A stretch of DNA of 64,000 bases from Flavobacteriaceae bacterium PS02334. GTDB lineage: Bacteria; Bacteroidota; Bacteroidia; Flavobacteriales; Flavobacteriaceae. The stretch is taken from the NCBI GenBank assembly GCA_029959295.1, contig JASCOH010000002.1, positions 1 through 64,000 of the forward strand, in the 5' to 3' direction. Of this stretch, positions 17,220 to 64,000 are shown piece after piece (position 1 is the first letter of the stretch; every line of letters begins with the position of its first letter). Made by a program: the position numbers and the translations under genes. A model generated the notes under the pieces. It was not told the origin of the DNA. It ran no database searches and was given only the letters and a program-made list of their open reading frames with translations.

Positions 17220-17334
17220 AATCAAAAGTTAAGTTATTGGAACTACGAATTTAGCATTTTCCAAATCAAAAAAGACGCATTTAAATTCAAAAACTTTTTC
17301 GTAAATTTGCACTCCAAACAACGATAGAAAAAAG

Positions 17335-49945: not shown

Positions 49946-49963
49946 TTGGCTTTGCAAAGCCAA
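49946..49963 (+). promoter_or_regulatory. 18-bp perfect palindrome at the mobA start
   Basis: TTGGCTTTGCAAAGCCAA is fully self-complementary and ends 10 bp before the mobA ATG. MobA has a ribbon-helix-helix-like N-terminus, and such proteins usually bind short palindromes, so autoregulation is likely (inference). Confidence 0.55.
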
Positions 49964-49973
49964 AATTGGAGAC

Positions 49974-50405
49974 ATGGGAAGCGAAAAAAATAAGAATCGG
50001 AACGCAGGAGGAAGGCCTCCAAAAATTGATCCCGCCGTCCACCGCTATTCCATCAGCCTTACTGCGGAAGAAAATGCGCGCTTCCTGTCGCTCTTTGAGG
50101 CATCGGGGATGCATGCGATGGCACACTTTATCACAGCCTGCGTTTTTCAGAAAGGCGTAAAGACAGTCACGATCGATAAGGCGGCGATGGACTACTACAT
50201 GCGCCTGACTTCTTTTTACAGCCAGTTCAGGGCTGTCGGGGTAAACTACAACCAGGTTGTCAAGATGCTCTACCGCAGTTTTTCCGAGAGAAAGGCCGCG
50301 GCCTACCTGTACAAGCTCGAAAAGCAGACCATCGAATTGGCTGTCCTGTCCAAAAAGATCGCGCAGCTCACGGAAGAATTTGAAAACAAGCACCTCAAAA
50401 AGTAA
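49974..50405 (+). CDS. mobA: MobA-like mobilisation accessory protein
   Basis: A 143-residue protein of the Bacteroidetes MobA type, a relaxosome component that binds the transfer origin and helps a MobB relaxase nick DNA. It starts with a basic NAGGRPPK segment and a ribbon-helix-helix-like region (VHRYSISLTAEENARFLSLF, about residues 22-41). It continues with the family core FYSQFRAVGVNYNQVVKMLY and ends in YLYKLEKQTIEL...LTEEFE. The ATG at 49974 follows the palindrome; the frame is open to 49896. In related elements mobB follows; here it is absent, so the mobilisation unit is incomplete. A second, diverged 3' end of this gene is at 61783-61892. Confidence 0.82.
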   Translation: MGSEKNKNRNAGGRPPKIDPAVHRYSISLTAEENARFLSLFEASGMHAMAHFITACVFQKGVKTVTIDKAAMDYYMRLTSFYSQFRAVGVNYNQVVKMLYRSFSERKAAAYLYKLEKQTIELAVLSKKIAQLTEEFENKHLKK

Positions 50406-50582: not shown

Positions 50583-50707
50583 GTTTGGATGCTAGCCGTT
50601 GGTTCCTGATGAAAGCGGACTGGGATTTCTCTGCCAGGATAAAAATTTCTTCCAAAAAGTAAACGTGCTGTAAACCGAAATTCGGCAATTGCGGTCAGTG
50701 GCATTTA
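50583..50707 (-). repeat. degenerate attC-like repeat
   Basis: This 125-bp stretch matches the repeat at 54564-54680 along much of its length (shared words TCTCTGCCA-GATAAAA, TTTCTTC, CTGTAA-CCGAAA, GCAATTGCGGT). The outer box near 50590 has decayed. It lies just past the stop of the flavin monooxygenase gene, so that gene could be an old member of the cassette array. It fills most of the 314-bp gap after mobA. Confidence 0.5.
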
Positions 50708-50719
50708 ACGTCATTTTTA

Positions 50720-51892
50720 TTATTCCTGTTTGTTGCCGCTAAAAAAGCCAGTCATCGCCGCCAGCGCATTTTCGCTGTGCATCAGTTCTCCATTTTCAAG
50801 CGATTCCTGCGCTATCTGTGAAGCCCGTTTTCGCATGGCTGTTTCATAAAAAGAAATGGATTTTTCAATAGAATCGTGTTCGCAGGCTGTCAGGCACTCG
50901 CTCAATTCCAATGCGTCAAGCATCGCCATGTTGACGCCTTCGCCGGCGAATGGCGGCATGACGTGGGCCGCATCTCCAAGCATGGTCAAGTTGGACTGTG
51001 CTTTCCAGGACTGGTCTAAAGGCATGCAGTATATTGGACGCGGGACAAACGGCATTGCCGTATTTTCAAACAGTTCTTCCCAGATCGTACTCCACTCGGA
51101 ATATTCTTTCCTAAACCAGCCAAGCACCTGCGATGGATCCGCAAAATCCAATCCGCTTGTGGAAACCCAATCTTTTTCTGCCCTGAAACTGGCGTAAAAT
51201 CCAATTTCCCCGTTGGCCTTCTGTCCCATCAGGATATTTTTTCCATTTCCGAAAGCCATTATTTTTCCTCCCCGAAGGATGGCAGCAACCTGCGGCACTG
51301 TCTTTTCTCCTTCATAAATGTTTCCCTCCAGCATCGTTATTCCTGAATAGAAGGGCTTGATATCTGTGATGTAGGGGCGGATCTTTGAATTCGCGCCGTC
51401 TGCGGCAATCACAATATCCGCGTAGACGCTTTTTCCATTTTTGAAATGCAAGAGCCAGCCCTCGCCCTGCTTTTCCATGGCTAAGAAGTGGCTGTCCCAA
51501 GCGATGCTTTCAGGATGCAGGGAATCTATCAATAGTTTTCGAAGCACGCCACGGTCTATTTCCGGACGGAAATGTTCGTGGCCGAAATTCTCTTCTTTTT
51601 TGGTATCGTGGTCGCTGAATACTGCTTTTGCCTGATCGTCAGTGATGGTAGTCCTGTCGGCTCCCGGCATATAATTCATTTTGAACTCCTCAAATAAGTT
51701 GGCTTTCCGCAGGGCTGCCAGCCCCGAATTTTCGTGCAAATCGAGAGGCGCGCCCTGTACTCGTGCATTTTTGTCTACATCCCTTTCATATACTTTTGCA
51801 TTCACGTTTTTCAACTGTAAAAGCCTGGCCAGTGTCAGTCCGCCCGGACCGCCGCCAACGATGGCTACCTGCTTGTTTTGTATCAGCATCAT
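50720..51892 (-). CDS. TetX-like FAD-dependent monooxygenase
   Basis: A 390-residue class A flavin monooxygenase. FAD motifs: VAIVGGGPGGLTLARLL (9-25), the DG-type motif IVIAADGANSKIR (about 160-172), and MLGDAAHVMPPFAGEGVNMAMLDALEL (about 301-327, named here in parts: GDAAH, then GEGVN). The sequence layout is that of TetX, which hydroxylates tetracyclines (similar YERD, LDLH and PEI-R blocks), but similarity is partial and resistance cannot be claimed. It follows an AraC-type regulator by 22 bp on the same strand. GC is higher than in the cassette genes beyond. Confidence 0.8.
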   Translation of the reverse strand: MMLIQNKQVAIVGGGPGGLTLARLLQLKNVNAKVYERDVDKNARVQGAPLDLHENSGLAALRKANLFEEFKMNYMPGADRTTITDDQAKAVFSDHDTKKEENFGHEHFRPEIDRGVLRKLLIDSLHPESIAWDSHFLAMEKQGEGWLLHFKNGKSVYADIVIAADGANSKIRPYITDIKPFYSGITMLEGNIYEGEKTVPQVAAILRGGKIMAFGNGKNILMGQKANGEIGFYASFRAEKDWVSTSGLDFADPSQVLGWFRKEYSEWSTIWEELFENTAMPFVPRPIYCMPLDQSWKAQSNLTMLGDAAHVMPPFAGEGVNMAMLDALELSECLTACEHDSIEKSISFYETAMRKRASQIAQESLENGELMHSENALAAMTGFFSGNKQE

Positions 51893-51914
51893 TTTGAATT
51901 TTTATCTTCCAAAA

Positions 51915-52664
51915 TTACTGATCGCCATAGGCTAAAAATTGTAAAAAACGGTCATTCTCATTTTTATGGAGCTCTTTGGGCGAGACGCCCGAAAATTGCC
52001 TGATTTCTTTGATAAAATGGGATTGGTCGGTGAAATTCAGCTTTGGATAAAGTTCGCCATTCTTTATATGGGGAAGCGAAGATTGAAAACGGAGTATCTT
52101 GCAGTAGGCTTTCGCTGAAAGTCCGAACTGCTGGTTGAAATACCGATTGATCTGGCGTTCGCTCCAGTGCACTCTTTCGGAAAGTTCCCTGATGGAGATC
52201 TCGCCGTTCGAAGAAAATAGCAGCTGGAACAATTGGCGCTTGCGCTCATCTATTTTTTTCGGCAAGAGAGAGCTGATCTTTTGCGTCGCTTTCTCACAGA
52301 ACCCTTCGAAGTCATCCATGTCATTCCTGCTGAAATCCCAAAAATTATCAGGCAAAATCATTCCCGTATTTAGGATATCGGCGACTGGCTGCTTAAAGAC
52401 ATATTCTATGGCAAGCGGATTAAAGCTGACCGAATAAAAACTGACCACTTCATGATTGGTGTATTTCGGTTTTGTCTCCAAGCCCAAAAGCACTGCGATT
52501 AATTGATTGTCGCCAGTCTTTGAAAATATCAGGTCAATTTTCCCATTTGGAATTATTACCGCTTCCTGCTGATTTGAGAAATCTTGCAGGGAAGTAAAGC
52601 AATGGACAAAATCAGATAGCGATTTGTCGGGTTCAACGAGTTGAAAATGCAATGTGTTTTTCAT
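51915..52664 (-). CDS. AraC-family regulator
   Basis: A 249-residue regulator. The N-terminal 130 residues resemble DUF6597-type sensor domains (FHC-like LSDFVHCFTSLQ, VIIPNGKIDLIF). The C-terminal 95 residues are an AraC DNA-binding domain with two HTHs (ISIRELSERVHWSERQINRYF, and LNFTDQSHFIKEIRQFSGVSP). It sits 22 bp before the flavin monooxygenase gene and probably controls it. Confidence 0.82.
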   Translation of the reverse strand: MKNTLHFQLVEPDKSLSDFVHCFTSLQDFSNQQEAVIIPNGKIDLIFSKTGDNQLIAVLLGLETKPKYTNHEVVSFYSVSFNPLAIEYVFKQPVADILNTGMILPDNFWDFSRNDMDDFEGFCEKATQKISSLLPKKIDERKRQLFQLLFSSNGEISIRELSERVHWSERQINRYFNQQFGLSAKAYCKILRFQSSLPHIKNGELYPKLNFTDQSHFIKEIRQFSGVSPKELHKNENDRFLQFLAYGDQ

Positions 52665-52700: not shown

Positions 52701-52829
52701 CATAACGTCTCGGGCTTTGCTAGTTTCAGAACTTCGTAACGGTGTATTTTTTGTTAAATATAAAATTTGTTCCGAAACGAAAACGTGAATTAACTACAAA
52801 ATTCGCAATTTTGCCAAACGCTTCCTATG
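52701..52829 (-). repeat. attC-like site 1 (degenerate)
   Basis: Resembles the site at 60674-60800: left end ATAACGTCTCGGGCTTTGC, right end TTTTGCCAAACGCTTCC, with a similar AT-rich interior, but the right GTTA box has decayed to CCTATG. It would be the outermost, oldest site of the array. No gene lies between it and the next element at 52924. Confidence 0.4.
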
Positions 52830-52923
52830 TTTGTAAATTCTTATATTTAATTAATTTAAAATTAATACTTGAAAGAACAAATGAGCAGAATAATATAGGC
52901 AAACCCTTTAAGCACAAAGCTTC

Positions 52924-52949
52924 GCTAACGTGATTATCCCTGCGTTAGT
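52924..52949 (-). repeat. short inverted TAAC/GTTA element
   Basis: GCTAACG (52924-52930) and CGTTAGT (52943-52949) enclose only 12 bases. It has the outer boxes of the attC-like sites but not the arms, so it looks like a site with its middle deleted. It follows the stop of the lipoprotein gene at 52966 by 17 bp. Confidence 0.45.
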
Positions 52950-52965
52950 GGCTGTTTTTCTTTTG

Positions 52966-53724
52966 TCAATAATACTCGTAACGTCCGTATTGAAATTCTT
53001 GTGCTCGTCTAAGATAAAAATTGTCTGTGATTAGCTTGTCAAGTTCATCAGCTATTTTATTAAGTTTTTTGGTTCGTTCAATCTTTTCTTGTCCTAACGT
53101 ATTGAAGTCAATTTTACTTTCGTCTTCTATGAGCTGTCGCAATGATTTGATGTAAAGTTCTTTTTGCTTTGTAATGTCGTATGTTTTGGAAATGTCTTTT
53201 TTGGTTTTTTGGAATAGGTAAATCGAATATTCTGCATAACCTAAAATTCGTCTGCTTTGGTGCCCAAAGTATGTTCCGCCATATTCAAAATGTCCAAATA
53301 ATGAATTTATGTTTGAGTAAATGTCTATCAGCTTTTGTCGATGTTGGGCAAATTCTTTAACTCCATTTTTTTGTTTGAGAAAGTAAGCGTACAAAACGTA
53401 ATAATTGTCTTGGCCAACTTCACTTCCAAATAGTTCTTTGTCATTGGCGTTGAAATATGCTTGGTCTGGGTTGTCTGGATATTCTTCAAAAAATTCTGTG
53501 TGTTTGTCTACAATGTTATTGAAGTCTGGTTTTGCATATTTCAGATTTTCACCAATTTCAGTTGCAATTAAAATGGTGTCTTGTTGTGTGTAGTATTTTG
53601 AGTTGTCAACCCTTGAGGTTTTAGTGTCTGTACTAACAATACTTCTCTTGTCAACCTGTTTTTGTTGATTGTTACAACTTAAAAATCCGATAGTAATTGT
53701 CAGTATGTAAATTGTCTGTTTCAT
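52966..53724 (-). CDS. cassette-encoded lipoprotein, unknown
   Basis: A 252-residue lipoprotein: signal peptide with lipobox GFLSC, a polar linker, then a helical domain rich in Tyr, Lys and Gln. No family recognised. It is one of the minus-strand genes separated by attC-like repeats; site 53742-53819 stands before it and the element 52924-52949 after it. Confidence 0.65.
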   Translation of the reverse strand: MKQTIYILTITIGFLSCNNQQKQVDKRSIVSTDTKTSRVDNSKYYTQQDTILIATEIGENLKYAKPDFNNIVDKHTEFFEEYPDNPDQAYFNANDKELFGSEVGQDNYYVLYAYFLKQKNGVKEFAQHRQKLIDIYSNINSLFGHFEYGGTYFGHQSRRILGYAEYSIYLFQKTKKDISKTYDITKQKELYIKSLRQLIEDESKIDFNTLGQEKIERTKKLNKIADELDKLITDNFYLRRAQEFQYGRYEYY

Positions 53725-53741
53725 GGTCGTCTTAAAATAGC

Positions 53742-53819
53742 CATTAACGTCCCCGCGCTACAAGCAGTTTGGGACTAAATTAAGCGTAATGCCCAAATTG
53801 CTTGTAGCGTGTGTTATGT
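53742..53819 (-). repeat. attC-like site 2
   Basis: 78 bp. Arms CGCTACAAGCAGTTTGGG (53755-53772) and its reverse complement with one mismatch (53792-53808) close a short loop. Outer boxes are CATTAAC and GTTATG. The stop codon of the gene at 53814-54083 lies inside the outer TAAC box, as in many integron cassettes. The shortest well-formed site of the array. Confidence 0.65.
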
Positions 53820-54083
53820 GCCGTATTTTGTTCGTTTATAAATATTTCGTCCGATAAATATAAGTCCAAGTATGTTTAGAATGTTCCAAAGTTGTAATGC
53901 AAAGTAAAAAATTAATTGTTGGTTATTCATACTCACTAAACTCCAATATTCTCCTTTTGAACTGTCGTAATTGTCGTCATAATCCATTTGCAAAACACCC
54001 AAAATCATATAAATAAAAATGTCAGCTATAATAACCGCAACCCAATAAATAACTTTTTTAAAGTAAACTTTCGTGTTATCCAT
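53814..54083 (-). CDS. small membrane protein, cassette-encoded
   Basis: An 89-residue protein with two membrane helices (about residues 10-32 and 54-76) joined by an acidic loop (DYDDNYDSSKGEYW). No family recognised. It starts 14 bp after the DUF5063 gene on the same strand with no repeat between, so the two share a cassette. The stop codon is in the attC-like box. Confidence 0.55.
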   Translation of the reverse strand: MDNTKVYFKKVIYWVAVIIADIFIYMILGVLQMDYDDNYDSSKGEYWSLVSMNNQQLIFYFALQLWNILNILGLIFIGRNIYKRTKYGT

Positions 54084-54097
54084 TTTTCTGTTTCATA

Positions 54098-54532
54098 TTA
54101 GTTTAAGAGGTCAAGAATGTGTTGTTGTGTATGGGCGTAAAAAATCAGTTTAAAAAACCAAAGTCCATCAGCTAGACTATTATTTTCAATTCCCCATTTT
54201 ATTTCTGAAAGGTCAATTATTATGTCTGTTAAGTCGTCAATTGCGTCACCGATTGCGTCATCCTTTAAGTTGTCAATATCTTCAATATCAAGTATTGCTT
54301 TATATAAACCAAAATCTTTAAAATTGCTTGTAACGTTTTGTCTAATGTCAGGATACTCAGTTTTATCGAACTCTGGAAAATCAGTTTCATCATACTTATA
54401 TTTTATGTCAAAATAGAGTTGATAAATTTTCACAAGATTTTTTTCTAACTTTTTTTCTTTATCAAAAGTAGCCAAGTTTGGTTCAAGTCCATACTTAACA
54501 ATTTCGTTTATTGTCGGAATTAATTCTCTCAT
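54098..54532 (-). CDS. DUF5063 domain protein
   Basis: A 144-residue acidic soluble protein with the DUF5063 pattern: EYPDIRQNVTSNFKDFGLY in the middle, then GDAIDDLTDIIIDLSEIKW, and the C-terminal GLWFFKLIFYAHTQQHILDLL. Function unknown; proteins of this kind are common in Bacteroidota accessory DNA. First gene of a two-gene cassette. Confidence 0.72.
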   Translation of the reverse strand: MRELIPTINEIVKYGLEPNLATFDKEKKLEKNLVKIYQLYFDIKYKYDETDFPEFDKTEYPDIRQNVTSNFKDFGLYKAILDIEDIDNLKDDAIGDAIDDLTDIIIDLSEIKWGIENNSLADGLWFFKLIFYAHTQQHILDLLN

Positions 54533-54563
54533 TTAGGTGTTTTTCTAATATGGCAAAACGCTT

Positions 54564-54680
54564 GGCCTGTAACCGCAGTTGCTGATGCAAGCGAGCTGAG
54601 TTTTCTCTGCCAAGATAAAACTTTCTTCGTGAAAATGGACGTTCTGTAACCCGAAAATCAGCAATTGCGGTTAAAGGCGG
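54564..54680 (-). repeat. attC-like site 3
   Basis: 117 bp. Outer parts CCTGTAACCGCAGTTGCTGA and TCAGCAATTGCGGTTAAAG are reverse complements with two mismatches. The interior contains TTTTCTCTGCCAAGATAAAA. A related decayed copy is at 50583-50707. The stop of the upstream cassette gene (54671) overlaps its outer box. Confidence 0.6.
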
Positions 54681-55317
54681 CTGTGCGATGTTTGTATTGG
54701 AAGAATTGTTTCAATTTGGATTTCTCGATGTTTTTTACTTGTCGTGAGTTCTAAAATGTAAGTGTCAATTCTATTAGATATTTTATCACCAGGAAAAGGT
54801 AAGTCTTGTTGTCCAACATCCAACATGATTAAATTGTGATTTTTCTCTAAAATTTTTAAAATCATTTTATAACATGAATCTTTATACATATACGATTGTT
54901 CAACCCAACCAATTTCTATTGGAGTTTTCAAAAAACAATCTAGCAGTTTTGTGTTTTCAATATCGAAAGCTAATTCATATTTCTCATTATTTTCACCACT
55001 GTAAGTATGTTGGATTACTTCCAAATAATTTTCCATTTGCTTGTTAAATACAACTTTTGCGTTACTTACCGTAAAATTCAAGGGATTGTCTTCTATTAAA
55101 AAATATTTTCCACATTCAATTTTTTTAATTTGTTGACGCCATCAAACTCAAAGAAAAGATACGTTCCGTCAATTCGATAATTTCGATTTGGATAAAATGA
55201 TTCTAGATTTTTTTCAAGATTGTATATTTCGAAATTAGCGAATTTTTGATCGATATATTCAAGCCAATTTTTCATAGGTATTCGAATTGTTTCGGGATTT
55301 ACTGTCAAATATCGCAA
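54671..55317 (-). pseudogene. one cassette gene split by a frameshift, also 5'-truncated
   Basis: Two open frames, 55317-55096 and 55081-54671, read as one protein. The first ends NVENIF-stop, while the frame of the second continues protein-like upstream of its TTG start (C-G-K-Y-F-L-I-E-D-N-P-L-N-F-T-V). The switch falls at a run of seven T (A on the coding strand) at 55120-55126, so one base gained or lost there joins the frames to about 215 residues. The 5' end is doubtful too: the frame runs back without an ATG (only ATG 55275 inside) into a half attC-like box at 55318-55337. Family unknown. Either a real mutation or an assembly error in the homopolymer. Confidence 0.55.
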
Positions 55318-55337
55318 AGCCCTTGTTAGCCGTTCGC
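55318..55337 (-). repeat. half attC-like site
   Basis: CCCTTGTTAGCCG is the outer GTTAG box plus a few bases of arm, as at other sites, but the matching opposite arm is missing and coding sequence begins directly. Looks like a deletion that removed most of the site and the start of the next gene. Confidence 0.45.
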
Positions 55338-55361
55338 TTTTTTGTCCACCGAAATTTGTTT

Positions 55362-55871
55362 TTAAATATTTGGTTCGTCATAAGCGTCTCCTAATTTTTC
55401 GAAGTCGTCTTGTAGCCAGTACCAATGTTCTCCTTTATTTGCGTATAAATTTTTCAGCAGTTCAGTGAAATTTTTCGCAACAATTTCACTGTCTCCTTCT
55501 AATGTGTGAATTTCATAAAAGCTGTCATAACATTGTCCAAGCCTCTCTTCAGTAAGGTCAATGCTTATATATTGGCTTAATTGTTCAGTTTCCGCAATTA
55601 AATACCATTCATTTGAAACTGAGCCCTCAAGTTCGTCCCACATAATATCGTCGGCTGGATATAGTCTTTTACTTGTTGGAATAAAATCTTTTCGTCCGAC
55701 AATATTTATTCCGAATGATTTTTTTTCAAAAAGCCAAATTCCGTCTGTCAATTCGTAAAACTCTTTTAAGTCGTTCGGAATATTTGTCGGCAAGCTAATT
55801 TCTTTATTCGCTGGTCTGACTTCGCAGTTTTCGTCTTGCTTTATTAAGTTTATAAGTTCTGTTATATTCAT
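55362..55871 (-). CDS. SMI1/KNR4 (SUKH) family protein
   Basis: A 169-residue SUKH-superfamily protein: IPNDLKEFYELTDGIWLF (about 32-49) is the core signature, followed by the strands EWYLIAETEQLSQYISID and a C-terminal FTELLKNLYAN helix. In bacteria many SUKH proteins are immunity proteins against secreted toxins. No toxin gene is next to it, so here it would be an orphan immunity-like cassette. Preceded by site 55909-56043. Confidence 0.78.
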   Translation of the reverse strand: MNITELINLIKQDENCEVRPANKEISLPTNIPNDLKEFYELTDGIWLFEKKSFGINIVGRKDFIPTSKRLYPADDIMWDELEGSVSNEWYLIAETEQLSQYISIDLTEERLGQCYDSFYEIHTLEGDSEIVAKNFTELLKNLYANKGEHWYWLQDDFEKLGDAYDEPNI

Positions 55872-55908
55872 AATTCTTTCTTATGTTTTCGGTCGGTCAT
55901 AAAGTGAC

Positions 55909-56043
55909 GGCTAACGTTCTCGCGCTACAAGCAGTTTGGGACTAAATCAGCGTTATCTTTCGTATTTGCCAAATATCACAAATACAAAACCGACTTTCCA
56001 TTAAGCCTATTGCCTAAATCCGTCGTAGTAGCTGCTTTAGGGA
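55909..56043 (-). repeat. attC-like site 4
   Basis: 135 bp. Left part GGCTAACGTTCTCGCGCTAC then AAGCAGTTTGGGACTAAAT; right part GCCTAAATCCGTCGTAGTAG then CTGCTTTAGGG, a mutated GTTAGG box. Interior CCAAAT..CACAAATACAAAACC..CCATTAAGCC is shared with the sites at 58843-58978 and 60160-60243. Confidence 0.6.
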
Positions 56044-56050
56044 GTGCATT

Positions 56051-56623
56051 TTATATTTCGTTATTACGGAGTTTTTGTTTCCATTTTTCAGTAACTTCTG
56101 CATTGTTGCCAAAATCAGATTCTATATCAAACTCATTAAGAGCTTTATCTCGCGCATTTAAATGTGTCTCTATAATTCCATTAATTTTATTTACATTTCC
56201 TGCATTTATTTTTTTACTATTAATCTCTTTTTCTGATTTTTTTGCAAAAAAATGTGCAATCTCATATTTCAATTGAAGATAATTTAAAAGTTGTTGCGAT
56301 TCACGTTGTGGATTAACCCACGATAAATCCCTTCTAATTCCTCCATATGATTCAACGGTAATAACTCCCGTCCAGGCATTTACTTTTTTGTTAAAAACGC
56401 CAAATGTCAACTCTATATTAGCATTCAAATCTTTGTTTAATTCAGGTGACATTTTAAAATCAGACCATTCTAAAATGTTTTTTGACCTCATACTAATGGT
56501 GTCTCCTTTGTTTGCTTTGGTCATTTCTGAAATAACTTTCTCCCATTTTTCTTGATTTTTTGCCTGACCAAAAGTCAAAAGTGTTAAACAAAGAGCTAAA
56601 AAAGTTAATGTAATTTTAATCAT
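56051..56623 (-). CDS. secreted protein, DUF922-like
   Basis: A 190-residue exported protein (signal peptide ending LLTFGQ). The WSDFK motif (about residue 54), the later SWVNPQRESQQLLNYLQLKYEIAHFFAKK (named in parts) and overall size recall DUF922 proteins, thought to be secreted zinc proteases, but the HEQ-x-HF zinc motif reads LKYEIAHFF here, so the active site looks lost. ATG 56623 is chosen as it starts the signal peptide; the frame opens at 56656. Confidence 0.55.
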   Translation of the reverse strand: MIKITLTFLALCLTLLTFGQAKNQEKWEKVISEMTKANKGDTISMRSKNILEWSDFKMSPELNKDLNANIELTFGVFNKKVNAWTGVITVESYGGIRRDLSWVNPQRESQQLLNYLQLKYEIAHFFAKKSEKEINSKKINAGNVNKINGIIETHLNARDKALNEFDIESDFGNNAEVTEKWKQKLRNNEI

Positions 56624-56696
56624 TTTTTCCAATTTATTAGGTAAGTTAAATTTCAAAAGTGTTTTTTATAATGTGTTTTTCGTCATTGCTTGCATT

Positions 56697-56833
56697 GCCT
56701 ACAACGTCCTGTGGCTTTGCGACTGTTGCGGAAATTGGAACTGAGTTCGCTCGGCTGGACTGGACGAAGTTAGGAAATCATATTTTAATTTTATAACTTA
56801 TTGAGCAACAGGGTAAAACCGCTGTTAGCCGTT
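56697..56833 (-). repeat. attC-like site 5
   Basis: 137 bp. Left part CTACAACGTCCTGTGGCTTT then GCGACTGTTGCGG; right part GAGCAACAGGGTAAAACC then GCTGTTAGCCG; the parts are imperfect reverse complements (GCAACAG / CTGTTGC). Interior CCAATT/CGGCTGGAC words are shared with the site at 57256-57394, so sites 5 and 6 are sisters. Confidence 0.6.
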
Positions 56834-56838
56834 CGTTG

Positions 56839-57234
56839 TTACTCAATATTGTTTTGAAAAATTCCTCGCATCATTTTTGAAATTTTCCATGAATCATTTA
56901 AATCGTTTTCAAAATCCGACCAGTAATAAATCGAATATTCATGCAACAAAAAATTATTTAAAAGTAGTTTCCGAATGACATCAGAATATTTATCAAAATC
57001 CTTCTCGTTTTCTTGATCTTCGGTCGCTTGAATTATTATTTCCATCAACGCAAACTTTTTATCATCATCAATTTCTTTAATGTAATGAGTAATATATTTT
57101 TCAATCTGATTTTTGTCACCGATTGTCCATTCCCAATCGTGGCAAGATTTATTTATATCGTAACCAAAATTAAAATCGATTGACAATTCTCTTTTCGCTT
57201 TTTCAGTAACGAATCTAAAGTTTGGTTCTTTCAT
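56839..57234 (-). CDS. cassette-encoded protein, unknown
   Basis: A 131-residue soluble acidic protein with many Asp, Glu, Asn and aromatic residues (DINKSCHDWEWTIGDK near 27-42). No family recognised. The frame is open to 57321, but that part translates the attC-like repeat; the ATG at 57234 (MKEPNF) just inside the site is the natural start. Confidence 0.6.
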   Translation of the reverse strand: MKEPNFRFVTEKAKRELSIDFNFGYDINKSCHDWEWTIGDKNQIEKYITHYIKEIDDDKKFALMEIIIQATEDQENEKDFDKYSDVIRKLLLNNFLLHEYSIYYWSDFENDLNDSWKISKMMRGIFQNNIE

Positions 57235-57255
57235 AATCGCGGATTTCGTACAATA

Positions 57256-57394
57256 ACAGCTAACGTTCTGTGGCTTTGCGACTGTTGCGGAAATTGGAAC
57301 TGAATACACTCGGCTGGACAAAACGAAATTAGGATACTAAAATGTAATTTTCATAACTTAATGCAGCAGCAGCGCAAAACCGCTGTTAGCAAAC
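57256..57394 (-). repeat. attC-like site 6
   Basis: 139 bp. Left part AGCTAACGTTCTGTGGCTTT then GCGACTGTTGC; right part GCAGCAGCGCAAAACC then GCTGTTAGCAAACG. Closely related to site 5 (56697-56833), including the interior CGGAAATTGGAACTGA. Confidence 0.65.
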
Positions 57395-57398
57395 GTAT

Positions 57399-58268
57399 TT
57401 ATTCTTTTTCAAAACATTGTCGTCCCACTGCACCGCCTCCAAATTCTAAAACAATATTTCTCTCATAATAAATATAAGAACAGCCATCATTAAATTCAGC
57501 TTGTTGTTTTTCACTTAAATCTTCTTCAAAGAATTTATATGAATATTTCCCCATTCCACTTCTTGCGAAGCCAACAGTAGATATTTTCCCATTTTCTATT
57601 GATCTACATTTTGCACTTTCAAGTAAATTCTCTATATTTATTAATGTTTTTTCATTCCATCCTAAAATCTTGATTTGGTCCAATAAGGCTTCTGAATTAA
57701 GTTGCAAATTCCATTCTTGAAAATCCAATTCAATACCGCTATTTTTACTTTTCTTATTTGAATGGATTCGTAAGTCGATACTTTTGTTAGTGCTCAAAAT
57801 AATGTCTTTCGGATTAAATTCAATAAATACAGTAAGGCCATCTGGAACTAACTTAGCATATTCTTTAATAAGTTTTTTTATGTTATTCTCATTTGCTTTT
57901 AAGTTTCTTATCTGTTCTTTTTTACTGCTTTCAGGCATAGAAAACATCATTAATAAAAACTCTCTACTTACTTCATTTCCTTCTTCATATGTTCTAGTAA
58001 ATCCTTCAACTTGAGAAGGATGAATTTTATTAGTAATTACTTGAAATAGTGAGTCTTTATTGATCTTCGGATTAAATTTTGGTTCATCTTTTTTAATAAT
58101 TCCCTTTTTAGATAATGAGGCACTATCTTTATTTTCAACAAATAGAAAATCTCCAGCAAGAATTGATTTTTCTAATTCTTTTTCAGTATAAGATTTTGCA
58201 TTTTTGCATTTTTGCGATGAGCAACTTAAAATCAAAGAGCAAATAAATATATAGAGTATGTGTTTCAT
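57399..58268 (-). CDS. cassette-encoded lipoprotein, unknown
   Basis: A 289-residue lipoprotein: signal peptide with lipobox LILSC (Cys about 16), Lys/Ser linker, then a mixed alpha/beta domain with KLVPDGLTVFIEFNPKDI and a Gly-rich end (VLEFGGGAVGRQCFEKE). No family recognised. Largest cassette gene. Confidence 0.65.
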   Translation of the reverse strand: MKHILYIFICSLILSCSSQKCKNAKSYTEKELEKSILAGDFLFVENKDSASLSKKGIIKKDEPKFNPKINKDSLFQVITNKIHPSQVEGFTRTYEEGNEVSREFLLMMFSMPESSKKEQIRNLKANENNIKKLIKEYAKLVPDGLTVFIEFNPKDIILSTNKSIDLRIHSNKKSKNSGIELDFQEWNLQLNSEALLDQIKILGWNEKTLINIENLLESAKCRSIENGKISTVGFARSGMGKYSYKFFEEDLSEKQQAEFNDGCSYIYYERNIVLEFGGGAVGRQCFEKE

Positions 58269-58275
58269 AATATGT

Positions 58276-58413
58276 TTGCTAACGTTCTGGCGCTACACTA
58301 GGTTTGGGATTAAAGATGCGAGTTTTTTTTCGGTTAAGCACAATTTTCCAAGTGCAAAACTATCTTTAAATTCAGCCTAACCCAAATCTCGTGTAACGGC
58401 TGTCAGCGGTTGT
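58276..58413 (-). repeat. attC-like site 7
   Basis: 138 bp. Left part TTGCTAACGTTCTGGCGC then TACACTAGGTTTGGGATTA; right part TAACCCAAATCTCGTGTAAC then GGCTGTCAGCGG (GTTAG box changed to GTCAG). Arms CTACACTAGGTTTGGG and CCCAAATCTCGTGTAA pair with a few mismatches. Confidence 0.6.
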
Positions 58414-58434
58414 GTTTTTATTCACTTTTATAAT

Positions 58435-58815
58435 TCAAATGGTATATTTTTTTTGCCAACAATCTATACACATTGTAATTCCACTTTTTCCTAACCGTTT
58501 CATTTCTTTCGGATTAAATTCCATTCCACATTGTTGGTCATATTCATAGTTTAACCAGAATGTTATATGCTTTTTCTTAATTCCTATTTTTTTGAGTTCG
58601 GCAAATTTTGGTTCAATTAGATCTAAAAAAATATTTATGAAATCATAATACGGCGTTTCGAGTTCATCTTCATCAAAAGTATAAGTCCATAAACGATATA
58701 AATCGTCTTTTTTTTCAGTATCAAATTCCGCTGGCTTAACTTCAAGAATTTCAGTTATTTTGGAATAAGTTTCAAAATTATTCTTGCAGTCAATATGTAA
58801 TCTATAATATTTCAT
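58435..58815 (-). CDS. DUF4279-like protein
   Basis: A 126-residue soluble protein. The pattern of YRLHIDCKN at the start, ITEILEVKPAEF (about 22-33), RLWTYTF and a helix FINIFLDLIEPKFAELKKIG matches DUF4279 proteins, small proteins often found near toxin immunity genes. The identification is by layout only. Confidence 0.5.
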   Translation of the reverse strand: MKYYRLHIDCKNNFETYSKITEILEVKPAEFDTEKKDDLYRLWTYTFDEDELETPYYDFINIFLDLIEPKFAELKKIGIKKKHITFWLNYEYDQQCGMEFNPKEMKRLGKSGITMCIDCWQKKYTI

Positions 58816-58842
58816 CTTTTCCGTTTCGTTCTTTCAACATAA

Positions 58843-58978
58843 CTGCTAACGTTCTCGCGCTACAAGCAGTTTGGGACTAAATTAAGCCTAAACTTTCGGT
58901 TTTGCCAAATCTTCCAAATACAAAACCATTTTTCCATTAAGCCAATTGCCCAAATCCGTTGTAGTAGCTGTTAGGCAT
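58843..58978 (-). repeat. attC-like site 8 (best consensus boxes)
   Basis: 136 bp. Left part CTGCTAACGTTCTCGCGC then TACAAGCAGTTTGGGAC; right part GCCCAAATCCGTTGTAGTAG then CTGTTAGGC. On the coding (minus) strand the outer box is GCCTAAC, which fits the integron R'' consensus RYYYAAC. Interior shared with sites 4 and the half-site at 60160. Confidence 0.65.
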
Positions 58979-59007
58979 AGTGTTTTTGGTTATTCAAAAC
59001 GCCTTTT

Positions 59008-59481
59008 TTAATTAGGATTTTTGAAGATTCTATCATAATTACCACTCCAAGAAGTTACATAATATGTAATACAATCATAATCAAATTTTTCAAGTTTCTG
59101 TCCGCTTTCTATAATGTTAATTTCTTCATTTGTTAGTAAAGTAGTAGTTCCGCCACCTGCACAAACAACAAAAAGTTCCTCATTTAATATTTTATAAACA
59201 TATTCTAATGCAATTTTTATTTCTTCTTCGAAATCTTGCTCACTAAAACTATCAAAATGACAATGATAACTATCAAATCCAACAGTTAATTCGTTGTCTT
59301 CGGAACTTAAGAATAAATTTGAAGTACTGTTTTGGTTTTCGGTTATAAGCTCTATGAAAATGTGGTTTTTTCCAAAATCAGAAGGCTGTAATGATATGTT
59401 TTCTAGTAATTTGCTATTATTCTTTTTTAAATATTCATAAACTTTATTTGAATAATCATTTAATTCATTCGAATCAATCAT
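59008..59481 (-). CDS. cassette-encoded protein, unknown
   Basis: A 157-residue soluble acidic protein (MIDSNELNDYSNK start) with FVVCAGGGTTTLLTNEEINI near 110-129. No family recognised; possible immunity-like protein by size and charge. The frame runs back to 59568 through a repeat; the ATG at 59481 is preferred. Confidence 0.55.
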   Translation of the reverse strand: MIDSNELNDYSNKVYEYLKKNNSKLLENISLQPSDFGKNHIFIELITENQNSTSNLFLSSEDNELTVGFDSYHCHFDSFSEQDFEEEIKIALEYVYKILNEELFVVCAGGGTTTLLTNEEINIIESGQKLEKFDYDCITYYVTSWSGNYDRIFKNPN

Positions 59482-59551
59482 AACATTTGGTTTAGTTTTT
59501 AAGTTTTGTCTTTTGTTATTTAATATTGTTGATTTCGTTTTTGCAACATTA

Positions 59552-59687
59552 TGCCTAACGTTTTGCAACTTGCAGAAGTGGCGGATTCAGAAAGCCTAAA
59601 CTTTCGGTTAAACACAGACTTTGCAATCACAAAACCAACTTTAAATTAAGCCTAAAACCTGCCATTTTGCAAACTGCTGTTAGCTGA
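59552..59687 (-). repeat. attC-like site 9
   Basis: 136 bp. Left part TGCCTAACGTTTTGCAACTT then GCAGAAGTGGCGG; right part CCTGCCATTTTGCAAAC then TGCTGTTAGCTG. The left box, read on the coding strand, is GTTAGGC, which fits the integron R' consensus GTTRRRY. Interior has AGCCTAAACTTTCGGTTAA as in site 8. Confidence 0.65.
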
Positions 59688-59691
59688 TGTT

Positions 59692-60156
59692 TTATAATTC
59701 AGATTGAGCTTCCGTTTTTAATTTTTCTCTTAACTCGCTGATTTGTTTTCTTTCTTTCGAAATCATTTTATAGCTAATATGATAACCAGGAATTTGAGTA
59801 TTATCTCCTTCTATACTACATTCGATTTTATTAGTTCTCCAAATGAATTTTGTTCCTTGCTCAACAGCATATGCTCTTTCCAAAGTAGAATACACATTTA
59901 GCACCTTTTCAGTAACTACTCGAATTTCGGTAATAATGTTATTTTCTGTTATTAAATATATAAACAGTATTCTTGCCGAGTTGATTTTGTCATTTTCGTT
60001 TCCTTTATAAACATGCGTTGACTTTTGATTCATACTTAACTTAAATAAGTCTTTGTTCAATTCGTTTTTCAATTCGAATTCCGGATAATTACTTACGGAT
60101 GTTTCTAATTTGACATTTCGGAATCCATATTTTGAATCTAGAAAAGTATAAGCCCA
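59692..60156 (-). pseudogene. 5'-truncated cassette gene
   Basis: The open frame 60072-59692 (126 residues from a TTG) continues protein-like upstream to 60156 (A-Y-T-F-L-D-S-K-Y-G-F-R-N-V-K-L-E-T), then meets an in-frame TAA inside half of an attC-like site. No ATG exists upstream of the internal ATG at 60033. The gene has therefore lost its start and probably a signal peptide, when the half-site joined it. Family unknown. Confidence 0.6.
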
Positions 60157-60159
60157 TTA

Positions 60160-60243
60160 TTCGGACTTGCCAAATCTTCCAAATACAAACCAATTTTTCC
60201 ATTAAGCCTAATGTCCAAATTGCTTGTAGCGTGTGTTATAAGC
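60160..60243 (-). repeat. half attC-like site fused to a gene
   Basis: Carries the interior CCAAATCTTCCAAATACAAA, the CCATTAAGCC word, the arm CCAAATTGCTTGTAGCG and the outer GTTATAAGC box, but the other arm is missing: sequence changes into coding DNA at about 60157, inside what is the loop in complete sites. Confidence 0.6.
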
Positions 60244-60248
60244 AAGTT

Positions 60249-60641
60249 TTATTCGTCATTTTTGATAAATTTTCCAGTTCCACATTGAATATGTAAATCT
60301 ATTCGGCAAACAAAGTAATAGGTGTTTCCTTCAACCTTTATAATTTCAAAATAAGGTTTTTGTTTTGAAATTATTTTTTGAAACTCTGTGAGTTTGGATT
60401 CGTCAACTTTTTCATTGTTCTTTAATTGGAAGCTACAATCACTCAGTGTTACAATTTCGTAATCTTTTTTTGCGTTATCTTCATAAGTATAATAATGATT
60501 TTCTTTTATTTCAAATAAACTTGAACCGTGATTTTTGTCGTCATATTGAGTTTCGTATTTTCCATTTTTCAGAATTGAACAATTCTGTCCAAAAGAACTT
60601 AAGCATAAACTCAAAATAATTATGGTCAAATATTTTTTCAT
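60249..60641 (-). CDS. secreted protein, cassette-encoded
   Basis: A 130-residue exported protein with a signal peptide ending SSFGQ, then a small domain with four Cys (including DCSF and CRIDLHIQCG), which may form disulfides. No family recognised. The ATG at 60641 starts the signal peptide; the upstream frame to 60707 is repeat sequence. Confidence 0.6.
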   Translation of the reverse strand: MKKYLTIIILSLCLSSFGQNCSILKNGKYETQYDDKNHGSSLFEIKENHYYTYEDNAKKDYEIVTLSDCSFQLKNNEKVDESKLTEFQKIISKQKPYFEIIKVEGNTYYFVCRIDLHIQCGTGKFIKNDE

Positions 60642-60673
60642 TCTTGATTTTGATCTGTTTAGTGCGTGAAACT

Positions 60674-60800
60674 TGCTTATAACGTTCCGGCGCTTGGCGA
60701 AGTGCAAAACTTCGGAAAGTAGGTTTTTCTATTTAATTTATTTGTCTTGCGAAATCGTAATTCCACTAAATTTTGCATTTTGCCAAACGCCTGTTAGCAC
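60674..60800 (-). repeat. attC-like site 10
   Basis: 127 bp. Left part TTATAACGTTCCGGCGCTTG then GCGAAGTGCAAAACTT; right part TTTTGCATTTTGCCAAACGCC then TGTTAGCAC. Arms GGCGCTTGGCGAAGTGCAAAA and TTTTGCATTTTGCCAAACGCC (each named here only as words) pair with few mismatches. Resembles site 1. Confidence 0.65.
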
Positions 60801-61372
60801 TAGTTTTTTAATTTAGATTTCAATTCTTCAATTTTTTGAGCAAAATCTTTTTTGTCAAAATCACTCATTTTCCTTGATAATTTATATTTCACACAAAACT
60901 CGTCAAGAGAATTACTTAAATCAGATGTTTCATTGATAGAAACTTGTATTAATAAAACCCCTTCTTTTAGTTTTTCCGCATCGAATATTTCAGATTGATT
61001 CGGTTCATTTAAGTGTTTAATTAATGGCAATATAAAACTATCCAATATTTTTTCACCAGATTCTAAATATTTTATTGTTTTTTGTTTAAGGTTCATTTTA
61101 TCGTCAACCTCTGTTAATTCAATAATAAACTTTCTATTTGCTATTAATGTAGATTTACAATTATAGTATTCACTCATTGATAAACTATCTATATCTCCAT
61201 CATTAAGAAGAGTGTTTATTTTTTTAATTAAAGGATTTATACTATTGCTAGAAGATTCGATTGAAGACTCAATTGAATTTTTAAAATTTAACTCATTATT
61301 ATTCTTTTGTTGAGAGCAACCATAATTAGTAACAATCAAAAGTAAGAACAATAAAAATTTTGCGTTTTTCAT
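60800..61372 (-). CDS. cassette-encoded lipoprotein, unknown
   Basis: A 190-residue lipoprotein: signal peptide with lipobox NYGC, Asn/Ser-rich linker, then a helical domain. No family recognised. ATG 61372 begins the signal peptide; the frame is open to 61453. It is the first gene of the array on the coding strand. Confidence 0.6.
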   Translation of the reverse strand: MKNAKFLLFLLLIVTNYGCSQQKNNNELNFKNSIESSIESSSNSINPLIKKINTLLNDGDIDSLSMSEYYNCKSTLIANRKFIIELTEVDDKMNLKQKTIKYLESGEKILDSFILPLIKHLNEPNQSEIFDAEKLKEGVLLIQVSINETSDLSNSLDEFCVKYKLSRKMSDFDKKDFAQKIEELKSKLKN

Positions 61373-61414
61373 TTGTGTAATAGATATTAAGTTCAGTTTG
61401 TCTAAAATTAGTGC

Positions 61415-61500
61415 TAACTTGTATATATCCGCTACGTTATAGCGCATAGCCACCCCATTATAGCTGTATATCTGCTGCTTTATAAGGTATATTCCACAAT
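61415..61500 (-). repeat. possible attC-like or array-end element
   Basis: Contains GTGCTAACTTGTATATATCC, CGCTACGTTATAGCGCATAG and TATAGCTGTATATCTGC: a TAAC box followed by inverted and repeated words, unlike the other sites. It may be the array's first site or a different repeat. Low confidence. Confidence 0.35.
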
Positions 61501-61624
61501 GCTACGAAAAAAAGCAATTCAATTTACATTTTTTGGTTAATCGAACTTTCTTTTTTTTAAGCGAGTTGGCTGTTATCAGATTTGTGCTGATGACTATCGA
61601 TATTTTTACCTTTAGCACAACCAT

Positions 61625-61659
61625 TAAAAAAAAGCTACCAATACTGGTGGCTTTTTTCC
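61625..61659. terminator. hairpin terminator
   Basis: Stem AAAAAGCTACCA / TGGTGGCTTTTTT with one mismatch and an ATAC loop, in noncoding DNA between the array and the mobA fragment. Confidence 0.6.
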
Positions 61660-61782
61660 GATATTTTAAGGACCGAAGTCCTCTTCTTGAAAACATAGTG
61701 CAGCTTCTGTTGCAGTACTTCCTTGTCAGGAAGCTGGGTGCGGTCGGCCACTACCGTGGTAGGATTCGGCTCAGTGCATATG

Positions 61783-61892
61783 CAGCGACATACCTGTACA
61801 GGCTGGAAAAGCAGACCATCGAATTGGCAGTCTTGTCCGAAAAGATCGCGCAGCTCACGGAGGAGTTTGATAACAGGCACCTTAAGAGCTAA
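61783..61892 (+). pseudogene. mobA 3' fragment
   Basis: The last 35 codons match the end of MobA at 49974-50405 (YLYRLEKQTIELAVLSEKIA against YLYKLEKQTIELAVLSKKIA) with about 85 % DNA identity by eye, in the same orientation. The sequence before it (61700-61782) keeps only scraps (K-L-G-A-V-G). It is a relic of a second mobilisation gene, not a recent copy. A GGCGGC-AGG-CCGCC hairpin follows at 61921-61934. Confidence 0.7.
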
Positions 61893-62079
61893 ATATTTCC
61901 AGCGTCTTAAACTTATGTCAGGCGGCAGGCCGCCATAGGCATCCTTAATAGGCGAGCCCTTTATTGACTTAAAAGCAGAACCGTCCAATTTAAAACGCAA
62001 AATATCCAACCAGGGGGTTGAATATTTTGGGTTTCCATTAATCTGGCTTAAGATCGGGTTCCATTATCGCCCTTGCCGG

Positions 62080-62676
62080 TTATGCAGCTGGAGGTTGCTT
62101 GATCAATTGGATATTGCCTACGATATCCACATCATCGGAAACGATCAGCTTGCCTGAATGCAGGACGCCTGCCCAGTCGAGACCGAAATCTTTTCTGCTT
62201 ATGCGGCCTCTCACGGTAAAGCCTGCCCGCACTTCCCCAGCAAGATCCGTAGCCAGCCCTCCAAATTCACCATTCAAAACCACCATTCTGGACAGGCCCT
62301 TGATGCTCAAGAGCCCCTGGATTTTAAAATCCCTGCGCAGGGCTCCTAAAAATGACGGCGGCGACATGCCTCCCTTTTCAAAATCTACGCTTTGAAATTC
62401 TAGGTATGGAAATTTTTTGGCATCAAGGAAGTCCTGTGACATCAGGTGCTTGTCCCTGGGGCCGTGTTCTGTGGAAAGTGAATCCAGGTATGCTTTCAGC
62501 TGGAGAGAAATGACATTGCCAAAATCACTGCCTGTGGTCTGGACTTCCAACTCGAAATTACTGATTCGGCCGGTTACCGTGGTGATCATTATATGCCGTG
62601 TCCGGAATGCTAGCTCGCTGTGAATCGGATCCACGCTCCATTTAGTTGCTGCTTCTTCTTGTGAATTTATATCCAT
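62080..62676 (-). CDS. YceI family protein
   Basis: A 198-residue protein of the YceI lipocalin-like family (isoprenoid-binding barrel): WSVDPIHSELAFRTRHIMIT at the start, LSTEHGPRDKHLMSQDFLDA in the middle, and RISRKDFGLDW near 160. No signal peptide, so this is a cytoplasmic variant; such forms are often tied to stress or redox functions. Higher GC than the cassette array. Same strand as the acyltransferase 172 bp upstream. Confidence 0.88.
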   Translation of the reverse strand: MDINSQEEAATKWSVDPIHSELAFRTRHIMITTVTGRISNFELEVQTTGSDFGNVISLQLKAYLDSLSTEHGPRDKHLMSQDFLDAKKFPYLEFQSVDFEKGGMSPPSFLGALRRDFKIQGLLSIKGLSRMVVLNGEFGGLATDLAGEVRAGFTVRGRISRKDFGLDWAGVLHSGKLIVSDDVDIVGNIQLIKQPPAA

Positions 62677-62848
62677 AATTGCTGGCGTATTTGTTTTGTG
62701 ACCTGTAATTTAAATTGTTGAATCTGACGATCCGTGAGAAATAGTAGTATGATTTTTATCGCGCTTGGCTATAGCGCCGAAGCCTGTGGCAGACTGGTCT
62801 GGCGCTGCGGCGCTATCGGGTAATTTGCTGGCGCCAGAGTAAAGATTT

Positions 62849-64000
62849 TTAGCAAGCCCCATAAAGTATCTCCTCCACTTTTTGCAAGAGGGATCCGGAA
62901 GGGGCCAGGCCCGTCAGCGTCAGCGTCAGTTCGCCATTTAGGGTTGCAACTCCGATAGTCAGGGCGGCCTCATGCGGCGTAAGTACCATCGGGCCCCAAA
63001 GCGATTTTATCTTAACGGAACCAAAGCCAGGCTCCAGGGAAAGGTTGCCAAGATTGGTCAGCATGACTTCGTGTGCCGTTCCCTGGTGCAGCGCTTCCTC
63101 GATATGCGCTACCTGCAGGCCGTTGCTGAACAGCGCGCCGGTCGCCTTGATGTCTGTTCGGATCCAGTCCGGCGTCTGCAAGGGAGCGATGCCTTCGCGG
63201 ATTTCTCTGGCGAGACTCCAGAAGTGCTGCTGGGGCGTTGGATCGTAGGCAAGGATAGCGATGTTGATAAAAAGCCCGTATGCTTCTCCGATTCCCAGGG
63301 TCTTGCGGGCTGAGAGCGGATGCAGTATGCGGACCGGTTTTTCCTGCAGGGCAGGATTTATCTTTTTAAGTGCCATAACGGTGGCGGCGCTCAGGGCTCC
63401 ATGCACGGTAGTCCCTTCTGTTTTGGCTCTTTCAATCAGCTTTGAAGTCAGGTCGCCGGATAATTTATGCCGTTCGATAGCTACGGAAGATCTTGGCAGC
63501 ACCTTTTTTTTGACCTGCCCAAATCCATCGGTCCTGCCCACATCCATTTTGACTGGAAGCACTCCCGCGAGTTCGTCCAAGGATAGTGAAGGTGCGGGGT
63601 GGCTTACCGCCTTCCCGGATACAGCCCCTACGATATCGCGAACTGTCAAGGCGACTGACATGCCGTCTCCAATAGAATGGTTCGACAAGAACATAAATAC
63701 GCACTGCCCTGGCTGCTGGATGAGCACCGCCCTGGCCAATGGCGCAACTGCCATATCGATCGGCAGGCTGAGCTCTTCTTCAATAATGCTGTTCCAGCTT
63801 TCAGAATTGTCTTTCATCGCAAATATCTTCAAAGGAATCGGGCAATGGCCTGCATGCTGGAAACGCGCTTCTGAATAGTCATTTCCTGAAATCTGCACGG
63901 ATAGCCTGGGATGCCTTTTCTGTACTTCGTCCAGAGCCGTTCGCCACGCCTGATCTTCATAATGGCCTTCAATTTCTGCCACGATGGCAAATTGGGTAGT
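62849..64000 (-). CDS. condensation-domain-like acyltransferase (partial)
   Basis: At least 383 residues of a CoA-dependent acyltransferase of the condensation/PapA/WES superfamily. The catalytic HxxxD motif is in FLSNHSIGDGMSVAL (about residues 98-112), and the C-terminal part has the LTNLGNLSLEPG region typical of this fold. It would transfer an acyl group to an alcohol or amine; the product is unknown. The frame stays open through the window edge (a GTG at 63982 is not a convincing start), so the gene begins outside. Confidence 0.75.
   Translation of the reverse strand, partial: TTQFAIVAEIEGHYEDQAWRTALDEVQKRHPRLSVQISGNDYSEARFQHAGHCPIPLKIFAMKDNSESWNSIIEEELSLPIDMAVAPLARAVLIQQPGQCVFMFLSNHSIGDGMSVALTVRDIVGAVSGKAVSHPAPSLSLDELAGVLPVKMDVGRTDGFGQVKKKVLPRSSVAIERHKLSGDLTSKLIERAKTEGTTVHGALSAATVMALKKINPALQEKPVRILHPLSARKTLGIGEAYGLFINIAILAYDPTPQQHFWSLAREIREGIAPLQTPDWIRTDIKATGALFSNGLQVAHIEEALHQGTAHEVMLTNLGNLSLEPGFGSVKIKSLWGPMVLTPHEAALTIGVATLNGELTLTLTGLAPSGSLLQKVEEILYGAC

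Follow-up and report, generated by a model that had tools for sequence, protein, structure and literature searches.

The window analysed here is the stretch of 64,000 nucleotides from position 1 of contig JASCOH010000002.1 in the genome of Flavobacteriaceae bacterium PS02334 (GCA_029959295.1). Its segment from 52.7 to 61.5 kb carries about 14 small genes, all on the minus strand, which are separated by 11 palindromic sites of 79-140 bp on the same strand and preceded by a sequence of a kind that, in related genomes, adjoins the gene of an unusual tyrosine recombinase (Table 1). The segment has a G+C content of 30.8%, against 35.3% for the whole window. Searches of Pfam, NCBIfam and padloc connect the cassette genes to almost no known family beyond SUKH-1: of 14 genes scanned with Pfam (E<=0.01), one encodes a SUKH-1 immunity-like protein (55362-55871), and a padloc scan of 10 genes gave a single weak match of 15 bits. 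The segment is very probably an integron-like platform's cassette array that remained after the integrase was lost; that enzyme would have belonged not to the integron integrases (IntI) but to a separate lineage, here called clade B. This reading is drawn from comparison of sequences.

An earlier note on this DNA had described imperfect inverted repeats between the minus-strand genes, with shared arms and interiors and sometimes with the gene's stop codon inside. These repeats are real. A covariance model (R2), built from 59 sites of other genomes, reports all 11 of them in the 64-kb window at E<=7e-5, where E-values are to be taken as rough. The independence of R2 is incomplete because its training sites were gathered with another model, R1, which was itself trained on the eight best window sites. 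Beyond the array, R2 found nothing else convincing in the 64 kb; it reported a weak opposite-strand echo of one palindrome (58286-58402, plus strand, E 0.009) and a weak match outside the array (17237-17317, E 0.44). Rfam gave no relevant match between 50 and 64 kb, the single irrelevant one falling below its gathering score. Stop codons lie inside three of the 11 sites, at 53814, 54671 and 60800. The gene of the first cassette is listed at 60800-61453, and its true ATG is probably near 61372.

Table 1. Features of the cassette array and its end in the 64-kb window (coordinates of the window).
Feature	Position	Strand	Evidence
attI, clade B type; ends in the GTTA core where the first cassette begins	61415..61489	-	nhmmer 29.9 bits, E 1.1e-7
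Cassette genes, small proteins	52966..61453	-	ORF (open reading frame) list, Pfam, padloc
attC-type site 1, end of cassette 1	60678..60801	-	R2 83.5 bits, E 6.6e-17
attC-type site 2, degenerate	60104..60243	-	R2 39.3 bits, E 1.1e-6; R1 partial match 60135-60221
attC-type site 3	59554..59687	-	R2 105.8 bits
attC-type site 4	58845..58978	-	R2 93.8 bits
attC-type site 5	58278..58410	-	R2 104.6 bits
attC-type site 6	57259..57393	-	R2 79.6 bits
attC-type site 7	56700..56832	-	R2 54.9 bits
attC-type site 8	55910..56042	-	R2 71.1 bits
attC-type site 9, divergent type	54554..54688	-	R2 34.5 bits, E 1.4e-5; R1 none at E<=1
attC-type site 10, short	53743..53821	-	R2 63.8 bits
attC-type site 11	52701..52837	-	R2 31.5 bits, E 6.8e-5
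Probable last, two-gene cassette: FAD monooxygenase and AraC-type regulator	50720..52664	-	starts behind site 11; Pfam, NCBIfam

The arms of these sites covary. For eight window sites, aligned with MAFFT between limits set by eye, a 23-bp structure was written down in which 83.4% of cells are paired, with a covariation of 0.548 versus 0.08-0.16 when partners are slid. Across 135 sites from many genomes, in an alignment fitted to the structure, 87.9% of 3,012 cells are paired and covariation is 0.613 (0.06-0.07 slid). Read in the sense of the genes, these 135 sites begin with ...CTAAC, followed by a 3-nt spacer (most commonly A-G-C), an arm, a loop, the returning arm, a 7-nt spacer (most commonly CCAGAAC) and GTTAG.... 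Of the 205 sites of all loci searched, weak matches included, 190 have AAC and 179 have GTT, and the arms are free to vary. attC sites are imperfect palindromes whose R and L boxes pair and whose arms vary, and the sites described here have this architecture; to the eye, sites beside a canonical IntI (locus L278) are similar, and their spacers measure about 3 and 6 nt. The sites presumably recombine as single-strand hairpins.

No tyrosine integrase was in view of the earlier note, and indeed the window contains no match to PF00589; the closest one on this contig lies at C22:76670. The note had also proposed a search of the genome for an integrase. No protein of the genome exceeds the cut-off of the integron integrase model TIGR02249 (265 bits), and the best match, at 178 bits and with model positions 179-242 unmatched, is a 372-residue tyrosine recombinase on another contig, C44. 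This enzyme heads an array of its own, from which it is transcribed away, with attI and cassettes present and with neighbouring genes that resemble MobA and MobC by eye. Further arrays lie on C68, on C67 and at two places on C22, and a single site lies on C11. When the C44 recombinase was searched in 296 genomes of the order, 65 contained a match at E<=1e-50. The matches form two groups: clade A, to which the C44 enzyme belongs, is 45-64% identical to the query over most of its length, and clade B, with proteins of about 340 residues, is about 38-41% identical.

Both clades are found beside arrays. We looked for sites in 19 regions around clade A- or B-type enzymes and one region of another group, then in 79 named loci, in the genus's 30 top-ranking clade B loci and in two plasmids of Chryseobacterium. 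At least one site is present in 25 of 41 clade B loci and in 15 of 28 clade A loci, counts that include the 30 clade B loci of only about 4 kb and several loci cut by contig ends. Orientation is nearly constant within each clade. For clade A, 35 of 37 sites lie upstream of the recombinase gene on the opposite strand, which is the classical divergent layout; for clade B, 60 of 63 lie downstream on the same strand, giving the order recombinase, attI, co-oriented cassettes. Three of the five exceptions are opposite-strand echoes of palindromes. Elsewhere, a Bacteroidales metagenome-assembled genome (locus L186) has a more distant recombinase with six sites upstream of it (E<=0.1) and may represent a third lineage of this kind of platform. 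Among plasmids, 50 of 67 records matching a clade A query are from Acinetobacter, at 45.8% identity over 63% of the query among the matches listed, and an uncultured-bacterium plasmid record with the same match labels the protein TnpF. A phage search returned only distant recombinases, in three records.

In both clades, as in canonical integrons, attI adjoins the recombinase gene. The roughly 110 bp after the clade B stop codon mostly hold a palindrome whose variable arms flank a CACCC...GGGTG-like centre, followed by TATATACAAGTTR or a close variant. In clade A, attI is marked by the motif ATATTTG...GTTR, which occurs with variants upstream of the recombinase gene at the 17 loci inspected, two of them with GATG in place of GTTR. 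A profile was made from 37 clade B attI sites out of 41 loci, none of them from this genome; its row for L101 is cut at an earlier AGTT and is imperfect. This profile finds the start of the window array (Table 1) and also that of the C68 array in the same genome (L048, E 8.8e-6), whereas its best E-value on reversed sequence is 0.46. Stretches free of ORFs and rich in hairpins occur at the crossover point of a site or attI in both kinds of platform (L128, about 7310-7465; similarly L084, L087, L096, L237, L264 and L266), and these may be gene-less cassettes or elements that target the core.

The recombinases differ from IntI in several respects. Four full-length clade A and B enzymes score 178 to 209 bits against TIGR02249, under its cut-off, and their best NCBIfam match is NF040815, for which one enzyme (L094) reaches 231.6 bits against a cut-off of 220 and the other three stay below, at 198-219 bits. 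The insertion of about 40 residues that IntI carries between patch III and the HxxR box is present in all nine canonical IntI aligned and in none of the four clade A or four clade B proteins. The R-K-HxxR-H-Y residues, which we take to be catalytic, are intact in the aligned proteins of both clades, and a C-terminal SPxD motif is common to IntI and both clades. Clades A and B have, in addition, an N-terminal domain of about 70-100 residues. In the AlphaFold prediction of a clade A enzyme (L128; mean predicted local distance difference test, pLDDT, 81.9; predicted template modelling score 0.59), this domain takes a small beta-alpha fold with a block pLDDT mostly near 85, and it may be an arm-binding domain. 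An IQ-TREE phylogeny of 40 proteins places IntI, clade A and clade B each in one group (100/99) and joins A, B and other relatives (80/91); its XerC and XerD branches are long, which leaves the placement of Xer unsure. On account of the recombinase, the array cannot be counted among integrons in the narrow sense.

Comparison of loci shows, in silico, that cassettes are exchanged, with breaks often at the GTT of the core. The recombinase and mobilisation module is 89-93% identical among C44 of this genome (L047), Flavobacterium erciyesense (L128) and F. notoginsengisoli (L129). The likeness ends at ...ATATTTGTGC|GTT (GTGT|GTT in L129), and the cassettes beyond differ. At the far end, L047 and L128 are 99.5% identical over 202 bp from |GTTACTAAATT on, and the sites that precede it differ. 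Between L128 and L129, cassettes are 100% identical over at least 4,530 bp, while the modules reach 91%; the break here lies at AACG|ATG and not at GTT. Two other loci (L085 and L086) share 2.39 kb at 99.9% that begins at a site core in one and at attI in the other. Taken together, 17 shared blocks touch arrays, and 19 of their 33 ends fall within 10 bp of a core or attI, compared with a maximum of five in 2,000 random placements; three of the 19 use attI positions taken from the same comparisons, and two are in the canonical-IntI array L278. A crossover at the core GTT is thus supported by comparison of sequences. In L278, two pairs of identical 421-bp stretches each have one end at a site core.

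Single cassettes of the window also recur elsewhere in the genus with different neighbours. The cassette at 60681-61418 matches L211:1501-2249 from site to site (75%), and that at 58279-58823 matches L213:2037-1501 from about 40 bp past the previous site through its own site (77%). In the other nine loci of this comparison, matches are shorter than a whole cassette. Site 11 has a 77% match in a Chryseobacterium plasmid, where the matching stretch belongs to the plasmid's own integron as one of its sites (L237:16397-16529); no other site of the window array was matched in the plasmid search. Group II introns in L047 and in the same plasmid lie on the strand opposite the cassettes, with the 5' end no more than 10 bp from the first site box; their reverse transcriptases are 70% alike. 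A third related reverse transcriptase (L165) has no site that we could find nearby. IIC-attC introns sit in attC in this manner, and by analogy the placement of these introns lends some independent support to the attC nature of the sites. An IS1182-like transposase gene, so classed by eye, lies inside the C44 array (L047:9621-11159), and an element 71.5% identical to it occurs in the L094 array, where a 1.8-kb block that holds it is repeated at 98.6%.

Sites of this kind are common in the genus, which is probably Flavobacterium, to judge from L128 and L129. With strict filters and few candidates scored per genome, 209 of 249 genus genomes carry sites at E<=1e-6. A separate search at E<=1e-70 matched clade B in 112 of the 249, and these matches include fragments, broken copies and proteins only 41-50% identical. 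Canonical IntI was found in none of the 249 (E<=1e-45). Fourteen named control genomes likewise gave no IntI match, a result that alone is not proof of absence. The same search across the phylum recovered IntI in 108 of 395 genomes (105 above cut-off), and none of the 108 belongs to the order of the window.

We propose that a cassette of the window array consists of one or two minus-strand genes and a folded attC-type site, and that a clade B recombinase would insert such cassettes at attI, now at 61489-61415, and excise them at their sites, with strand exchange at the core GTT. As no clade B gene was found in the genome, the array would be frozen unless the enzyme is supplied in trans. The platform on C44, with its clade A recombinase, attI and cassettes, is a second one in the same genome. 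That enzymes of clades A and B catalyse the exchange is suggested by their position, by attI and by orientation. In silico, there is good support for the view that the window array functions as integron arrays do. At a larger scale, we consider it likely that Bacteroidota, and above all this genus, harbour a second kind of integron, in which at least two non-IntI lineages with the N-terminal domain and lacking the IntI insertion would capture and shuffle cassettes at attC-type hairpins, the order of gene and attI being inverted in clade B.

Several observations weigh against these proposals. In the first 20 recombinase regions, four (L088, L091, L096 and L099) had no site and three (L084, L087 and L093) gave only matches at E 0.09-0.22; contig ends lie beside the gene in L096 and L084, but L088 and L099 offered more than 9 kb on the array side and were still siteless. 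R boxes of attC have the consensus RYYYAAC/GTTRRRY. The GTTAG and CTAAC boxes pointed out in the earlier note are real, but its suggestion that several boxes fit this consensus extends to a minority of sites: RYYYAAC occurs in 24 of 205, GTTRRRY in 13 and both in two, so that the full 7-mers of most sites deviate. Fourteen of the 33 block ends lie more than 10 bp from a core. No integrase remnant was found upstream of the window attI. Possible clade B remnants upstream of the C67 and C22:301k arrays have E-values of 0.083 and 0.11, no better than the 0.099 of a chance match that the clade A query has elsewhere in the window. Activity of the array in this genome is hypothetical, given the lack of a clade B gene in it at E<=1e-70 and of PF00589 in the window. 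Finally, both clades are without a domain that PMC9668308, in the part of its text available to us, calls defining for IntI and necessary for activity and integron recombination.

The array could instead be an ordinary cluster of attC sites lacking integron integrases (CALIN), with canonical attC left by a lost or trans-acting IntI and with the clade A and B enzymes as bystanders. Site architecture is the same as that of canonical attC, weak sites occur beside canonical IntI (at one of 15 loci with R1, L278, and at three of 15 with R2, L278, L280 and L282), and R1 has matches at E<=1e-6 in 44 of 148 phylum genomes, several of which have canonical IntI (e.g. G301 and G310). This account is unlikely, however, given a genus in which sites are found in the great majority of genomes and canonical IntI in none, and an attI that directly adjoins the clade A or B gene in constant orientation. 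The earlier note's CALIN-like label was right as a description: the attC architecture and the GTT breaks are there, and at least two attC with no integrase nearby, the definition of a CALIN, correspond here to 11 attC-type sites with no PF00589 match in the window. It leaves out that an attI is kept, that the enzyme of relatives is not IntI and that a sister clade A platform sits on C44. With attI retained, the array looks like an integron minus its integrase and not like cassettes scattered off-target.

An array of clade B type is also favoured over service in trans by the clade A platform on C44, which we think improbable. In favour of C44, no other recombinase of clade A or B was found in the genome, and one model finds all the sites. 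Against it, the window attI has the clade B form, and R1 scores the three sites on C44 at 40-50 bits, whereas the eight best sites of the window, on which R1 was trained, reach 68-117. It is harder still to credit that the palindromes are repeats with no role in recombination, of the repetitive extragenic palindrome or miniature inverted-repeat transposable element type, or terminators. They are imperfect palindromes between genes, and some could terminate transcription, but pairing is kept though arm sequences differ, shared blocks often stop at one fixed side of the palindrome, a distinct attI stands at the array start, and single cassettes recur with other neighbours.

The two-gene stretch behind site 11 is probably the last cassette, and the array probably extends toward 50.6 kb: beyond it, at 50602-50702, lies another copy of site 9 (79%), absent from the R2 matches. 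Its flavin adenine dinucleotide (FAD) monooxygenase (50720-51892) resembles the Tet(X) family, at 259.5 bits and far under the NCBI cut-off of 750. The array segment is bracketed by a MobC-like gene (49896-50405), identified with Pfam, and by an 86% copy of 111 nt of that gene's 3' end (61782-61892). The window integron may have been carried by a mobilisable element, as on C44. The flank at 61420-63900 has no syntenic locus in 150 genus genomes; the search gave a partial self-copy (88%) and, beyond that, a single match of 194 bp at 71%.

If the proposal is true, the IntI insertion is not required for integron recombination in general, and how a recombinase reads a folded site without it becomes testable. 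The extra domain of IntI guides integron detection: in the portions of the sources available to us, a 2008 survey selected on it, and IntegronFinder 2 states that it lets IntI be 'easily distinguished'. As surveys key on this domain, they could overlook a platform that lacks it, and the genus would then appear integron-free though 209 of 249 genomes carry sites. The same kind of platform is widespread in the genus and opens a large, almost unannotated cassette pool, which is present on at least one plasmid too. No title on Flavobacterium integrons, or on cassette arrays with insertion-less recombinases, was found in the literature, in a search with most subscription papers and all of bioRxiv outside its scope.

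Among the NCBIfam families, the four full-length clade A and B enzymes scanned match the XerA type best (NF040815, 'site-specific tyrosine recombinase/integron integrase'). Unlike that type, they mostly fall under its cut-off (three of four), have an IntI-like SPxD motif and an N-terminal extension, and lie beside cassette arrays. An integron-like subgroup of tyrosine recombinases has been described in which the insertion is not fully conserved (Smyshlyaev et al., 2021; PMC8138268, as far as its text was available). Clades A and B may therefore sit in that subgroup, untied there to arrays; section 7 of that paper treats the insertion as essential for integron function and, in the same available text, names no cassette arrays for members without it. 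The window resembles a CALIN in its 11 sites with no recombinase in the window, and differs from one in its retained attI, a type whose enzyme in relatives is non-IntI. Chromosomal integrons with canonical IntI are known in Bacteroidetes, for example in Salinibacter ruber (PMC9024848, in its available part). With such integrons the platforms share an attI, tandem one-way cassettes of small unknown genes, breaks at GTT, folded sites with conserved AAC and GTT and a short 5' and longer 3' spacer (by eye against L278) and, in clade A, the divergent layout. They depart from them in a recombinase that lacks the insertion of about 40 residues, has the extra N-terminal domain, falls outside the IntI clade and scores under TIGR02249, in R-box 7-mers that mostly deviate and, in clade B, in an attI placed behind the 3' end of the recombinase gene.

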